Below are positions 4,045 to 25,572 of a stretch of DNA of 59,770 bases, piece by piece. The notes under the pieces were generated by a model. The model worked only from the letters and a program-made list of their open reading frames with translations. It was not told the DNA's origin and searched no databases. The stretch spans positions 1 through 59,770 of the forward strand of contig JALOOM010000050.1 of NCBI GenBank assembly GCA_025454395.1, in the 5' to 3' direction. Both the position numbers and the translations under genes were made by a program. The stretch's first letter is position 1. Each line of letters opens with the position of its first letter. Source of the stretch: Elainella sp. Prado103 (GTDB taxonomy: Bacteria > Cyanobacteriota > Cyanobacteriia > Elainellales > Elainellaceae).

Positions 4045-4597
4045 AGCGTTCGATCTCCCGATGATGAAGTGCAGTTCCAAGCAGGCTTCTGGGATCGGGA
4101 CAGCAGGAAAGCACGATCGCATCAATCAACCATGGCATAACTGAGGCATATCCCAAGACGATAAGACGGATCGTGAAGTTTGATACCCTCTATTGAGATC
4201 ACTAAGGATCATTAGGATCACTAAGGATCATTGGGATCGCTGGGATCATTGGGATCGCTAAGGATCATTGGGATCGCTGGGATCATTGGGATCGCTAAGG
4301 ATCACTAAAGACCATTGGGATCACTGAGATCACAAACTGAGGGAATGAACTAAACGAAATCAAGGCAAAGCTAAGGCTGTGATTATTCTCGCAAAGGCTA
4401 AGCGGTTCTGAGCGATTCCCAGCCTGAAACTTAATGAATTGAGATATTCCCGTAGCTCCGCCATCAATTACGGTTTAACCATGACTGCTGAAACGGAACA
4501 ACCGAAGTCCATTACCTGGTAGATATTTGGTAGAAGTGGTTGCTGGCAACCGGCTTTGCCAGTGAACTCTTCACTTACCAGAACTTATCGGAACTTA
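4045..4597. other. Gene-free spacer upstream of chlB, with repeats
   Basis: The 553-base spacer lies between chlB (leader side) and the end of the GspE-like gene. It should hold the chlB promoter. It contains the GGATCATTG-type tandem array described separately. A 13-codon plus-strand frame starting MTAETEQPKSITW at 4480 ends in TAG and is not credible as a gene. I see no RNA gene. Confidence 0.6.
4195..4332. repeat. Higher-order tandem array with two exact 37-bp units
   Basis: Basic words GGATCATTG and GGATCGCT or GGATCACTAA repeat every 9-10 bases. Two adjacent 37-bp blocks (4225-4261 and 4262-4298) are identical, so an older 9-10-bp array was itself duplicated as a block. The array lies about 150-290 bases upstream of the chlB start codon, on the promoter side. 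Confidence 0.9.
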
Positions 4598-6805: not shown

Positions 6806-8338
6806 TTAGAATTGCGAGATCGCTTGAGCTGACAAACCGAACCCGATGCAGACAATACCTATCGCACTCAGGATCGGCAGCAGTTTGATGGCGCGTTTGG
6901 GTGCTGGGAACTGCCGAAATAGAGGTTTGGCATAGACCATCAGTAGCCCTAACCCGATTAGTACACCCGCTAGTCCGAGGCTAAAGGCCAAAACCAACAG
7001 TAATCCCAATCCAACTTGACCAAGGGCGATCGAGCTGAGGAGGAGGACGAGGGCGGCAGGGCAAGGGATGAGCCCACCAGAGATGCCCAGGGTGAGGAGA
7101 TCCTGCCAGGAAGCAGGAAGCTGATGATGTGAGTGGTGATGTGAGTGATGATGTGAGTGATGATGTGAGTAATCAGAACTGGAATGAGAGTGATAGGCTT
7201 GACCAGAAGGTATAGAGGAATGATGATCACTTGCGTGAGGATGAGGATGAGGATAATCATGTGAGTGATCGTGATGATGAGTCTGCCCTCTGGATCGCTG
7301 CCAGAGTAACCGACAGCCAATGCCAATCACCATTAGCCCAGAGATGAGGTTCATCCAGGGATAGGCTTGGTGGGGGAGGAAATAGCGGGAAGCGAAGAGG
7401 GTCAGGCTGCCTAAAGCGAAAATGCCGATCGTGTGGGTGATGGTGGTTGTGAGTCCGAGGACAATGGCATGTTTGGGGGTGGCACGATTGCCGACGAGGT
7501 AGGCTCCTACCAGAGTTTTGCCGTGACCGGGGGAGAGGGCGTGCATGGCTCCCCAGCCGATCGCGCCTAAAATCACCCAAATAGAACTGCCGATCGATCG
7601 GGTTGCGAGTCCGGGAGTGAGTGAGAGTAAGCGGCGATCGGGCGTGAAAGTAAAGGTTTGTAACTGTTGATTTTGCAGGATAGTGGCCAGACAGCTTGCT
7701 GTAGAAATCCCTGGCAAAAACAGATGGTAGTGAATCTGGAGTCCTTCGATCGGTTCTGTCCAAGTGTAGGTCAGGTTTAAGGTGGTGTGGGTGGGTGTAA
7801 CGGATGGGGGGGGTGTAACGGATGGGGGATGGGTGGAGCGGATGGGGTTTTGGGGAACGGATGGGGTGTTTGTTGAGGATGGGGTTTTGGGGAGCGGATG
7901 GGGGGGGATTGGAGGGGTGAGGGTGAGTTGGCCGGGTTGGTTGTTGTTGTTTGTGAGTTGGATGGCTTGGGCTAGGAAGGTTTGGAGTTCGGCTTGGTGG
8001 GTTTTGATTTCGGTGGGGTCGAGTTGTTTGTCTTGGTTGCGATCGGCGAAGGGGGTGAGTTGTGTGGGATAGGTGAGGTTGATTGCGACTGTGGTTTCGT
8101 TTACGATGATTTCGGCAGCAGACATATCGGCCCAGTGGGCTTGGCTGGGGAGGGCGATCGAGCTAATCAGGACAGTGACTAGGGTTGACAGTAGGCTAAG
8201 TTGCAGTGTTCTGGGGAAGTTGAGATAGGTGGGTTGGGGGGGGCAAGTACGGATTTGGGATGGCGATCGTATCAAGCTGCTAAATAGGTGCTTGAATGGG
8301 TGGATGAATTTAAGTTGAGTGGTTTTGGGAATGTTCAT
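6806..8338 (-). CDS. NicO/RcnA-type nickel-cobalt transporter with His-rich loop
   Basis: The 510-residue protein is a membrane transporter of the NicO family. After an N-terminal hydrophobic segment (about 47-66, ending SQAHW) comes a periplasmic-like domain with an EF-hand-like loop, DRNQDKQLDPTE (99-110), then a Pro/Ser/Thr-rich linker (140-185). The membrane domain carries the family motif HALSPGHGKT (266-275) and GGLIPCPAA (421-429). Between them is a His-rich cytosolic loop (353-405) with HHSH tetrapeptide repeats, typical of metal-binding loops in Ni/Co exporters such as RcnA. Its ATG overlaps the stop of the TPR gene (ATGA, 8338-8335), so it is probably translated by coupling. The exact metal is not determined by sequence. 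Confidence 0.82.
   Translation of the reverse strand: MNIPKTTQLKFIHPFKHLFSSLIRSPSQIRTCPPQPTYLNFPRTLQLSLLSTLVTVLISSIALPSQAHWADMSAAEIIVNETTVAINLTYPTQLTPFADRNQDKQLDPTEIKTHQAELQTFLAQAIQLTNNNNQPGQLTLTPPIPPHPLPKTPSSTNTPSVPQNPIRSTHPPSVTPPPSVTPTHTTLNLTYTWTEPIEGLQIHYHLFLPGISTASCLATILQNQQLQTFTFTPDRRLLSLTPGLATRSIGSSIWVILGAIGWGAMHALSPGHGKTLVGAYLVGNRATPKHAIVLGLTTTITHTIGIFALGSLTLFASRYFLPHQAYPWMNLISGLMVIGIGCRLLWQRSRGQTHHHDHSHDYPHPHPHASDHHSSIPSGQAYHSHSSSDYSHHHSHHHSHHHSHHQLPASWQDLLTLGISGGLIPCPAALVLLLSSIALGQVGLGLLLVLAFSLGLAGVLIGLGLLMVYAKPLFRQFPAPKRAIKLLPILSAIGIVCIGFGLSAQAISQF
7126..7172. repeat. 12-bp in-frame repeat coding HHSH tetrapeptides
   Basis: GATGATGTGAGT-like units repeat about four times. On the minus strand they encode the HHSH repeats of the metal-binding loop in the NicO transporter. 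Confidence 0.8.
7780..7935. repeat. G-rich low-complexity tract in the NicO gene
   Basis: The plus strand carries many runs of four to eight G (ACGGATGGGG-type degenerate repeats separated by GTGTA, TTTTGGGG and similar). The gene is on the other strand, so its mRNA is C-rich and its template strand is G-rich. The encoded segment is the Pro/Ser/Thr-rich linker of the transporter. The tract has the run spacing expected of G-quadruplex-forming DNA. Confidence 0.7.
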
Positions 8339-12885: not shown

Positions 12886-12999
12886 AAAACAGTCCAAACC
12901 AAAACAGTCCAAACCAAAACAGTTCAAACTAAAACAGTCCAAACTAAAACAGTTCAAACTAAAACAGTCCAAACTAAAACAGTTCAAAACAGTTGAAAA
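12886..12999. repeat. Tandem array, 15-bp unit, about seven copies
   Basis: AAAACAGTCCAAACC or its variants AAAACAGTTCAAACT and AAAACAGTCCAAACT repeat without gaps. From 12916 on, TTC and TCC versions alternate, giving a 30-bp higher-order period. Confidence 0.92.
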
Positions 13000-19842: not shown

Positions 19843-20427
19843 TTACTGAGCCAGTAAAAATCCGGCTCCTGGTTTACGGAGGATATAACGAGCGGTATTC
19901 TCAGCCGGGGTACGATACAAAATCAACCCGTTGCGGTTCGGCAACAAATAAAAATAGTAGACTGCTTGGGAGACTGCCAACTGCTGCTCACGGGGAATGC
20001 CAGCGTTCTCAGGAAAGTAGCCTGCTCGGTTGACTACAGTATATCCAGATAAAATATTGGCAGCGAGATCATAAATGTAAGCATAATCTCCTTCAAAGTA
20101 AGGATCGGTTTCTAGATCGGCTAACACGCCAGTTGAAAGCGTCGCTTCTGCTTGTTGTTCCCACTCTGCAAAGCGGGCTGCGGGCAATACTCCCGATCGA
20201 ATTTCTGACTGAGCGTTTCCGGCTTCCCCCAAACTGAGCAAACTCATCGTAATACTGGCAACCATGCTAGCAACAATGACGATACTGGATCCTCGCTTGA
20301 CGACTTCCTGACGCAGTCGGTTCAGATCGATCGTCGCTCTAGATGGCATTCGCCTAAACTGGATCCTGGACTGGATCCTGAACTGGGAACCCCAACTCTG
20401 AATCAAATTCGCTCGAACAGATTTCAT
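19843..20427 (-). CDS. Hypothetical exported or membrane-anchored protein
   Basis: The 194-residue product has a basic N-terminus, then a hydrophobic segment (about 47-68, SIVIVASMVASITMSLLSLG) that could be a signal anchor or a cleavable signal ending GNAQS. The rest is mixed alpha/beta, with ETDPYFEGDYAYIYDLAANI and a C-terminal FLLAQ. The ATG has a strong AAGGAG ribosome site 8 bases upstream, which argues for this long start. A 12-bp repeat in the N-terminal part encodes RIQSRIQFR. I do not recognise a family. Confidence 0.6.
   Translation of the reverse strand: MKSVRANLIQSWGSQFRIQSRIQFRRMPSRATIDLNRLRQEVVKRGSSIVIVASMVASITMSLLSLGEAGNAQSEIRSGVLPAARFAEWEQQAEATLSTGVLADLETDPYFEGDYAYIYDLAANILSGYTVVNRAGYFPENAGIPREQQLAVSQAVYYFYLLPNRNGLILYRTPAENTARYILRKPGAGFLLAQ
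20358..20393. repeat. 12-bp in-frame repeat, three copies
   Basis: ACTGGATCCTGG, ACTGGATCCTGA and ACTGGGAACCCC lie head to tail inside the start region of the preceding gene, keeping the frame. Confidence 0.75.
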
Positions 20428-20606: not shown

Positions 20607-21116
20607 CTAGGTTGATTCAGATGCAGGCAGTAGATAGATGGCACCGGAAATTAAGGTTAATGCCACAGAGATCCAAAACACAATCATGCTAATTCCCTGC
20701 AACTCGGCCAAGGGAGCCATCAGTAGGGCGATCGCCGTAATTTGCGAAACGGTTTTCAGCTTACCCCACAGGTTTGCCCCAGAAATTTTGGGTTGATTGA
20801 CGCGCCATCCAGCAATTGCCAGCTCTCTGGCCAAAATTAAAAACACTCCCCAAGCCGGAATCTGACCTAACTCGATCAACACCAGTAGGGGTGCCAAAAC
20901 CAGTAACTTATCGACCAGGGGATCCAGAAATTTGCCTAAGTCAGTGATTTGGTTGAGTTTACGCGCTAAGTAGCCATCTAACCAGTCTGTTCCTGCCGCA
21001 ACTAAAAAGACAGCCACCGCCGCCCATTGCAGTGAGATCGCAGGCTGATAAAGCAGAACCAGCACGATCGGCACACCCAGCAGACGAGAAACGGTGATCC
21101 AGGTTGGTAAATTCAT
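20607..21116 (-). CDS. pgsA: CDP-diacylglycerol--glycerol-3-phosphate 3-phosphatidyltransferase
   Basis: The 169-residue membrane enzyme makes phosphatidylglycerol phosphate from CDP-diacylglycerol and glycerol 3-phosphate, the committed step to phosphatidylglycerol, an essential thylakoid lipid. The CDP-alcohol phosphotransferase motif is complete: DWLDGYLAR then GKFLDPLVD, with the four metal-binding aspartates. The opening NLPTWITVSRLLGVPIVLVL and several hydrophobic helices agree with the family. The start region has been duplicated as a 14-bp repeat, so a second ATG lies 14 bases upstream in another frame (separate entry). Confidence 0.92.
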   Translation of the reverse strand: MNLPTWITVSRLLGVPIVLVLLYQPAISLQWAAVAVFLVAAGTDWLDGYLARKLNQITDLGKFLDPLVDKLLVLAPLLVLIELGQIPAWGVFLILARELAIAGWRVNQPKISGANLWGKLKTVSQITAIALLMAPLAELQGISMIVFWISVALTLISGAIYLLPASEST

Positions 21117-21131
21117 ATTGGTAAATTCATA
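21104..21131. repeat. 14-bp duplication of the pgsA start, creating a mini reading frame
   Basis: TTGGTAAATTCATA occurs twice. The copy at 21104-21117 holds the pgsA ATG (21116-21114, minus strand). The upstream copy gives another ATG at 21130-21128 that reads MNLPI and then TGA at 21115-21113, so the mini frame ends in an ATGA overlap with the true start. Confidence 0.92.
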
Positions 21132-21447
21132 TTAGTGGAGAAAAAACAGGTTCTAGAAGTCGTCTTTCGACTTGATTATCCGAAGCATCCCTCCCGGCAT
21201 ATTATCCCAATTATGTTTAGGTGTACTCTTGATATTGGATTATTTTGTCTATGTCAGCTCTCGCCGGATTGGCTGGGCTATACACAATGATCAAGGCTGC
21301 TGAGTTTGGATTGACCGATCGGTCTATACCTGAGTGCAGAGATCATCCCAATTGGAGGGGCAGTAGGTTCTCTCTTGCGATCGATGTCCAGAAACGCAGA
21401 ACTCGGTTGAATGATATCAGCACATCAATAACGGAGACTCAAGGGTA

Positions 21448-21987
21448 ATGCGTAAGTTGAACATTGGCTTAAGCGAAGAGCAGCGCCAAGGCGTGGTTAA
21501 CCTTTTGAATCAGGATTTGGCAGATGCTTACCTACTCCTGATCAAAACTAAAAAATATCATTGGGATGTTGTTGGCCCACAGTTTCGATCGCTTCATGAA
21601 CTTTGGGAAGAACAATATCAGGCACTCACAGCGAATATTGATAGCTTGGCAGAACGGGTACGTACTTTGGGCGGGTATCCAGTTGGCACCGCGAAAGGAT
21701 TTCTGCAAATGGCATCAGTTAAAGAGGATGCTGGCAAAGTGCCTACTGCAACCGAGATGGTTGCCAATCTAGTGGATGATCACGAACAAATTATTCGTAA
21801 CTTGCGTGAGCATGTCGATCAGTGCAGCGATGAGTTTCATGATGAAGGCACGGCTGATTTCTTAACTGGATTAATGGAGCAGCATGAAGAAATGGCCTGG
21901 ATGTTGCGCTCCTTCATTGAAGGCGAGAACTTGACCAGCGATGGCTCTAAGGACAATCGAGCCATTAAGTCTCCTGTGGGCGTTTAG
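21448..21987 (+). CDS. dps: Dps family ferritin-like DNA-protection protein
   Basis: The 179-residue protein is a four-helix-bundle miniferritin. The inter-subunit ferroxidase ligands are in KKYHWDVVGPQFRSLHELWE and in the ALTANIDSLAERVR segment. Twelve subunits would form a hollow sphere that oxidises Fe(II) with hydrogen peroxide and stores iron, protecting DNA in stress. The middle part FLTGLMEQHEEMAWMLRSF is the usual fourth helix. The ATG has GGAG about ten bases upstream. A short frame ending on the same ATG (from 21245) does not look real. Confidence 0.92.
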   Translation: MRKLNIGLSEEQRQGVVNLLNQDLADAYLLLIKTKKYHWDVVGPQFRSLHELWEEQYQALTANIDSLAERVRTLGGYPVGTAKGFLQMASVKEDAGKVPTATEMVANLVDDHEQIIRNLREHVDQCSDEFHDEGTADFLTGLMEQHEEMAWMLRSFIEGENLTSDGSKDNRAIKSPVGV

Positions 21988-24309: not shown

Positions 24310-25572
24310 ATGCAATCCCCTACCCCCCTGGCCCTCCGTGTTGGCATGACTGTTATTGCGATCGTGGCGTTTGGCAGCACTCCCGTGATCGCTGAACCAG
24401 GATTACGACAGCCTGCTTCCGGAAGCAGTGAATCCCCTCCAAACGAATCAACCCCATCCCCAGCCGATTCAAGCGTGGTGCAACAGTCGGTGGCACAACA
24501 ACAACAGTCGGTGACGCAACAGTCGGTGACGCAACAGTCGGTGGCGCAACAGTCGGTGGCGCAACAGTCGATCGATCAACGCCTCGATCGACTTCAGACG
24601 GGGATCAATCTTCGCCAGCAACTCAATCAGTCTCGGTTCCGTCATGCTGATCGATCGATCGGTATTGGTGCTGACTCCCTCCAACTCCAGCAGGAACTTC
24701 AGCAACAGTTGCAGTTGCAAGATGACCAGCAGCTTCGCCGCAATGTGAGCACTTCTCCATCGCGTAGCCTGGATCTGCTGCAATTTGAGCAGCGCGTCCG
24801 CCAGCAAATTCGGCAACAGCCTGATGATCCCCAGTCACGGATGACCCTGGCTCAAGCCAATCCGGTCAATACAGCAGACTCAGATAAAGTTCCAGCCATA
24901 ACGGAGGCGGCTCAACCTGCTGCGATCACTCCATCTTCCGAACCAATTCCATCGCCTCAGCCCGCTCCATCGCCTGAAACCCCAGACACTGAGGCCGCTT
25001 CTGCAGCTCCATCGCCTACAACAACCTCCAGTGCAACCGCCTCTGGCGCAGCAGCCTCGATCGAAACACCGTCTACTCCCCAGGCAGAAGCCACCGATCC
25101 TACTAATCAGACGAGCAATCAACCTGCTAATCCTGCCAATCAGCCTGGTACTTCAGAGCAGCCGAACCCTGTCGCGGAAGATCTTTCCGAGCCAGCACCA
25201 GACCTAAAAGATCAGGCGACTGTTGCGGAAGCAATGGCTAATGAGGGCAGCCCAACTGAGGTGACTGCTGAGGAGAGGAAGGCAGAAGCAGCACTAGAAG
25301 CAGCAGAACTTCCAGGGGCAGTTAGCCCAGAGGCAGTTAACCCAGAGGCAGTTAACCCAGAGACAGTTAACCCAGAGACAGTTAACCCAGAGACAGTTAG
25401 CCCAGAGACAGTTAACCCAGAGACAGTTAGCCCAGAGACAGTTAACCCAGAGACAGAAGCTCCAGGAGCTGAGAATGCTGAAGTTGAGGTTTCAGAGACC
25501 ACCGCTGCTGAATCGCCAGAAGCTGAGTCCTCAGAAGCGGTAGAAAAAAGATCAGCCCTCAGAAGAGGATGA
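24310..25572 (+). CDS. N-terminal part of a TolC-like protein, cut short by a one-base shift
   Basis: The 420-residue frame starts with a signal peptide (ALRVGMTVIAIVAFGSTPVI, cut near AEPG). It continues with a low-complexity region: QQSVT/A repeats (55-90), Gln/Leu-rich helices, then a Pro/Ala/Thr/Glu-rich stretch and TVNPE pentapeptide repeats (about 337-382). It ends ESSEAVEKRSALRRG and stops at 25572. The TolC domain lies in the next frame, which is open and plainly coding from 25544 on (KKDQPSEEDEEAAE). The two frames meet at GAAAAAAG (25543-25550): with five A instead of six, one continuous protein of about 905 residues would result. Long disordered N-termini before the TolC domain are common in cyanobacteria. 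ATG at 24310 is preceded by GGAAAG. Confidence 0.75.
   Translation: MQSPTPLALRVGMTVIAIVAFGSTPVIAEPGLRQPASGSSESPPNESTPSPADSSVVQQSVAQQQQSVTQQSVTQQSVAQQSVAQQSIDQRLDRLQTGINLRQQLNQSRFRHADRSIGIGADSLQLQQELQQQLQLQDDQQLRRNVSTSPSRSLDLLQFEQRVRQQIRQQPDDPQSRMTLAQANPVNTADSDKVPAITEAAQPAAITPSSEPIPSPQPAPSPETPDTEAASAAPSPTTTSSATASGAAASIETPSTPQAEATDPTNQTSNQPANPANQPGTSEQPNPVAEDLSEPAPDLKDQATVAEAMANEGSPTEVTAEERKAEAALEAAELPGAVSPEAVNPEAVNPETVNPETVNPETVSPETVNPETVSPETVNPETEAPGAENAEVEVSETTAAESPEAESSEAVEKRSALRRG
24475..24573. repeat. 15-bp in-frame array encoding QQSVT/A
   Basis: CAACAGTCGGTGACG and CAACAGTCGGTGGCG units repeat about five to six times, with one interrupted copy. They give a Gln-rich pentapeptide repeat just after the signal peptide of the TolC-like protein. 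Confidence 0.9.
25318..25458. repeat. 15-bp in-frame array encoding (A/T)V(N/S)PE
   Basis: About nine units of the type GCAGTTAACCCAGAG or ACAGTTAACCCAGAG follow one another, with N to S variants. They encode an acidic, Pro-containing spacer ahead of the frameshift site. Confidence 0.93.

Follow-up and report, generated by a model that had tools for sequence, protein, structure and literature searches.

Three described systems come closest to the arrangement at the pgsA start of Elainella sp. Prado103. The first comprises the short tandem arrays of cyanobacteria; according to the available part of one report, the microsatellites of Leptolyngbya-like strains lie overwhelmingly in coding regions (PMC8619395). 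The second comprises direct repeats of TAACTGA, which are described, in the accessible portion of the source, from Beggiatoaceae, cyanobacteria and Bacteroidetes, and for which the author proposes an action on translation (PMC4679880). The third is termination-reinitiation at overlapping stop and start codons. As given in excerpts of the two reports, 13 of the 14 E. coli and Haloferax gene pairs tested with an ATGA or TGATG overlap showed coupled translation (PMC6728339), and for two E. coli pairs the final 15 nt of the gene upstream were enough (PMC10666635).

The pgsA locus resembles each of these in a different respect. With the cyanobacterial arrays it shares short head-to-tail units that occur at many loci and differ between relatives, with the TAACTGA repeats the position of short direct repeats near start codons in distant lineages, and with the termination-reinitiation pairs the overlap of stop and start as ATGA. 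The arrangement is very probably a species-level 14-bp tandem duplication that came to cover the pgsA start by chance in an array-rich genome, with little or modest effect.

Structure of the pgsA start region

The window, i.e. the whole 59.8-kb stretch of DNA that was analysed, carries the following features at this locus:

20607..21116, minus strand: pgsA, 169 aa, with its start in the inner repeat copy (ORF, TIGR00560, Pfam and start aligned with relatives)
21104..21133, minus strand: perfect tandem repeat, period 14, 2.1 copies (TRF, 100% matches, and sequence)
21113..21130, minus strand: five-codon frame ATG AAT TTA CCA ATA TGA (MNLPI, stop) provided by the outer copy (sequence and script check)
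21132..21134, minus strand: in-frame TAA upstream of pgsA (sequence and script check)
21135..21447, no strand assigned: region between pgsA (minus) and a divergent 179-aa ORF (plus, 21448-21987) (sequence and ORFs)

The sequence-only reading had described the start-region 14-mer as present twice, and this is confirmed by sequence and TRF, with a repeat length of 30 rather than 28 bases: TTGGTAAATTCATA (plus strand) is followed directly by a second copy of itself over 21104-21131, and the match stays perfect as far as 21133. On the minus strand the unit is TATGAATTTACCAA, up to rotation. The array thus conforms to the short arrays of this genome, whose units of about 9-20 bp follow one another head to tail with perfect or almost perfect matches. 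The same reading had an outer ATG at 21130 open an MNLPI frame whose TGA overlaps the true ATG, which a script check of the minus strand bears out. The outer ATG occupies 21130-21128 and the TGA 21115-21113, which overlaps the inner ATG (21116-21114) as ATGA, the stop/start overlap of coupled gene pairs. The frame exists because 14 equals 2 modulo 3, the gene begins with ATGA and no stop codon intervenes.

The ORF matches TIGR00560 with 167.6 bits (cut-off 109.1) and the Pfam family CDP-OH_P_transf. Upstream of the inner ATG, its frame holds five sense codons, none of them a start codon, followed by the TAA at 21134-21132, so a longer pgsA is impossible. In 25 of 37 relatives the aligned start is an ATG followed by A, and the proteins mostly begin with MNLPTWIT; the remaining 12 lack an ATG plus A at the aligned position, and their true starts are less certain. 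The aligned starts and the upstream TAA together identify the inner ATG as the gene start and the outer copy as the addition. Judging from this anatomy, the native pgsA leader would now stand in front of the outer ATG. The region 21135..21447 presumably holds the pgsA promoter together with this leader, now adjoining the outer ATG. A promoter and terminator scan of 21080-21460 found neither a sigma-70-like promoter in the intergenic region nor a terminator.

Conservation among relatives

A pgsA match was obtained in 39 relatives, 37 of which are readable at the aligned start (the matches in G004 and G018 fall short). None of the 37, including the congeners G001, G002 and G003, has an array spanning the pgsA start, so an array at the same site is absent from the relatives read. 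Upstream of pgsA, the congener G002 (L004) carries arrays of period 11 at -81..-58 and of period 8 at -56..-40, and G003 (L161) carries one of period 13 at -81..-35; G001 has no array upstream of pgsA. The differing arrays in the leaders of G002 and G003 suggest a turnover of arrays in this leader.

An ATG frame that ends on the pgsA ATGA is found in 6 of the 25 relatives with an ATGA start, with lengths of 6-40 codons. Shuffled upstream regions give 4.5 +/- 1.9 such frames, and 29% of the shuffles reach 6. A five-codon ATG frame on the ATGA is absent in all 37 relatives, i.e. conservation of the kind seen in leader peptides or uORFs was not found among them. A search of 386 genomes of the phylum for doubled starts resembling MNLP (degenerate pattern, spacing 0-25), which would miss starts that deviate from the pattern, yielded ten matches from nine genomes; the only one located at pgsA is that of Prado103 (21106-21130).

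Short tandem arrays in the Prado103 genome

Perfect arrays of at least two copies and a period of 9-30 were counted in 1,824,134 bases (101 pieces: 100 stretches and the window) of the 5.84-Mb genome. This sample contains 841 arrays (0.46 per kb), 88 of them with period 14; extrapolation of the sampled rate to 5.84 Mb gives about 2,700 arrays in the whole genome. Units of 9-17 bp account for 788 of the 841, units under 9 bp being outside the count. Called ORFs contain fewer arrays per kb (0.21) than the sequence outside them (1.5), and 531 of the 841 arrays lie mostly outside. Base composition does not lead one to expect a perfect repeat of this length: one Markov shuffle of the first 729,779 bases sampled yielded 1 array, where 335 were observed. 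The repeat at the pgsA start is nevertheless ordinary for this genome, given 0.46 arrays per kb.

In samples of 100 kb from each of three relatives the density is 0.18-0.33 per kb, and the pgsA neighbourhoods of 29 relatives contain 15 arrays in 97.6 kb. The genome of a Chromatiales bacterium (G040, see below) has 1 array in 46 kb. Prado103 encodes the photosystem I protein PsaD (246.5 bits), which identifies the genome as cyanobacterial; among 14 control genomes, this family gave a match only in Synechococcus elongatus.

TRF reports 83 rows for the window; in 65 of these the period is 9-19. Long arrays lie at 4192-4333, 7789-7917, 12886-12999 and 25319-25456. A 12-bp array at 20353-20386 falls within the 5' part of the neighbouring minus-strand ORF 19843-20427, where, provided that the start was called correctly, it corresponds roughly to residues 14-25 (SQFRIQSRIQFR).

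A mobile or genome-wide repeat family built on the pgsA unit was also considered and rejected. A search of viral contigs for ATGAATTTRCCAATATGAATTTRCC gave no exact match, and ATGAATTTNCCAATATGAATTT, with up to 3 mismatches allowed, occurs once in the genome.

Arrays that span gene starts

In the genome sample, 16 rows, one array being listed twice, give 15 separate arrays that run across a plausible ATG start and provide an earlier copy of the ATG; gene starts were taken from a simple ORF caller, and two of the 15 (L100) lie side by side before the same ORF. For 1,395 ORFs, random placement would roughly give 21 (at half the noncoding density) to 42 (at full density). Start-spanning arrays are thus not enriched in the sampled genome, and depletion is not to be read from 15 versus 21-42 either, as the filter behind the observed count is stricter than that behind the expectation.

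Sorted by period modulo 3 (0, 1, 2), the start-spanning arrays number 3, 8 and 4, compared with 442, 205 and 194 among all 841. Class 2, which can yield coupled frames, is therefore not favoured over class 1 among the 15. In class 1, the upstream frame continues into the gene in 7 of 8 cases, and in class 2 all four frames close exactly at ATGA. With a random fourth base, such a result would have an estimated probability of about 0.35 to the fourth power, so the closures form a small excess, in a tiny sample, which counts against an origin by chance. Selection for a coupled frame was rejected as an explanation of these arrays, since the frame classes do not show it, at small numbers. The 1.82 Mb sampled contain four class 2 chains at ORF starts, namely the one at pgsA and the following three:

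L040:2559-2612, Prado103 genome: two MSHNQT-stop frames before a cupin ORF (Pfam Cupin_2)
L040:3137-3164, Prado103 genome: one MSLLI-stop frame before a 145-aa ORF without a Pfam match
L120:19095-19131, Prado103 genome: three MTEA-stop frames before a 291-aa ORF

A parallel array in a Chromatiales genome

An exact scan of genome contigs with the 28-mer, which may leave out records of the Prado103 genome itself, gave one place, in a Chromatiales MAG. At L032:5506-5575, four full copies of the unit TATGAATTTRCCAA and part of a fifth follow one another; immediately upstream the scaffold has a run of N and a duplicated flank, so the true copy number is uncertain. Two of the four full copies carry G for A relative to the pgsA 14-mer. 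The array comprises four MNLPI-stop frames; a protein-kinase ORF of 470 aa begins with the ATG on which the last of them ends.

Horizontal sharing between the two genomes is not favoured. The doubled unit is confined to a single region in each (G000, i.e. Prado103, and G040), the genes are unrelated, only the repeat aligns between L032 and the window across 8 kb, and none of the 57 further genomes recorded as related to G040 has the pattern at up to 1 mismatch. The parallel is judged to be chance convergence, because arrays of this kind occur often, the collection searched is very large and ATGAATTT makes an easy start. By our own estimate, 0.1-1 chance matches to a given AT-rich period-14 unit would be expected in the 257-Gb collection. 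An array of the same 14-mer at the start of an unrelated gene is nonetheless a coincidence that a chance origin must accept, and it counts against that origin.

Origin and consequences of the duplication

Slippage or misalignment during replication probably gave rise to the second copy at pgsA. Any ribosomes that initiated at the outer ATG would stop on top of the true start codon, where the ATGA overlap could let them reinitiate. Given this possible route, the cell probably tolerates the second copy, which would alter the output of PgsA little or modestly and be tolerable rather than useful. The pgsA arrangement is most likely an arithmetic by-product of a mutational process that is common in this genome. 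The sequence-only reading had offered two outcomes, a tuning of PG (phosphatidylglycerol) synthesis or a neutral product of the repeat process. The latter is supported by the data, with 841 arrays in the sampled part of the genome; the former finds no support, given the lack of the arrangement in the relatives read, the chance-level frequency of their coupled frames and the want of start enrichment and frame bias.

An alternative is that the extra copy lowers pgsA expression without useful regulation, either as a decoy start or by moving the leader 14 nt away from the gene. In its favour, the outer ATG has the native upstream context and is followed by the same bases as the inner ATG up to the end of the 14-bp unit. 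By eye, however, neither ATG is closely preceded by a Shine-Dalgarno-like GGAG, and the leader may therefore offer little signal that could be displaced. Moreover, PG has been called indispensable in plants and cyanobacteria (PMC4547039), and a strong loss would thus be selected against. Lowered expression is regarded as unlikely.

The duplication could also be a device for translational coupling, in which the inner start needs initiation at the outer ATG to open or feed it and translation of the MNLPI frame sets the output of PgsA. The coupled gene pairs introduced above lend it a precedent, and the native leader, placed before the outer ATG, would suit it. Folding offers some further support: a weak hairpin of -2.3 kcal/mol is predicted between the two copies and includes the inner AUG; in 21 of the 24 windows folded, this AUG is less open than its counterpart in a comparison sequence with a single copy. 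This effect depends on the window, however. The outer and inner AUG differ in openness by at most 0.06 in 16 of the 24 windows, and the 151-nt region folds no better than its shuffles (z +1.22). A hairpin that hides the inner start, as indicated by one fold (inner AUG 0.10 open, outer 0.88), was discarded as not robust over the 24 windows. Set against coupling are also the 37 relatives without the arrangement, the start-spanning arrays without a bias towards coupled frames, and the coupled ATG frames of the relatives, which occur at chance level. A coupling device is considered improbable.

A bolder version extends the idea of coupling to a class of loci. Slippage duplications with a period of 2 modulo 3 over ATGA starts would produce chains of self-copied mini-frames, each closing on the start of the next, and their copy number could act as a fast-changing dial on translation. 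Candidates are the four ORF starts in the Prado103 genome and the four MNLPI-stop frames before the Chromatiales kinase start. If chain copy number did set output, bacteria would possess a contingency dial on translation; we consider this very improbable.

An assembly artefact, with the second copy absent from the organism, is barely credible: the genome is a 157-contig draft, but hundreds of similar arrays occur in its sampled part and ordinary sequencing reads are long enough to contain a 30-bp repeat.

Comparison with known systems

The favoured reading, a slippage duplication over the pgsA start by chance, places the locus among the short tandem arrays of cyanobacteria. The arrays of the Prado103 genome differ from the microsatellites of Leptolyngbya-like strains, as characterized in the available part of PMC8619395, in that most have units of 9-17 bp (788/841) and the majority lie mostly outside called ORFs (531/841). 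The TAACTGA repeats, as PMC4679880 describes them, are found at numerous loci of a single genome (169 sets in one case), whereas the pgsA unit is doubled at one place; neither TAACTGA nor its reverse complement is present in 21104-21133. A duplicated start like that of pgsA was not recognised in the literature searched, as judged by titles and the beginnings of abstracts, and its absence there is unproven.

Compared with the termination-reinitiation pairs, as far as the excerpts of PMC6728339 and PMC10666635 describe them, the upstream frame at pgsA is putative, a five-codon duplicate of the start itself that was not found in the relatives read. The pgsA case is a warning that mini-frames coupled by ATGA can arise from tandem duplication alone.
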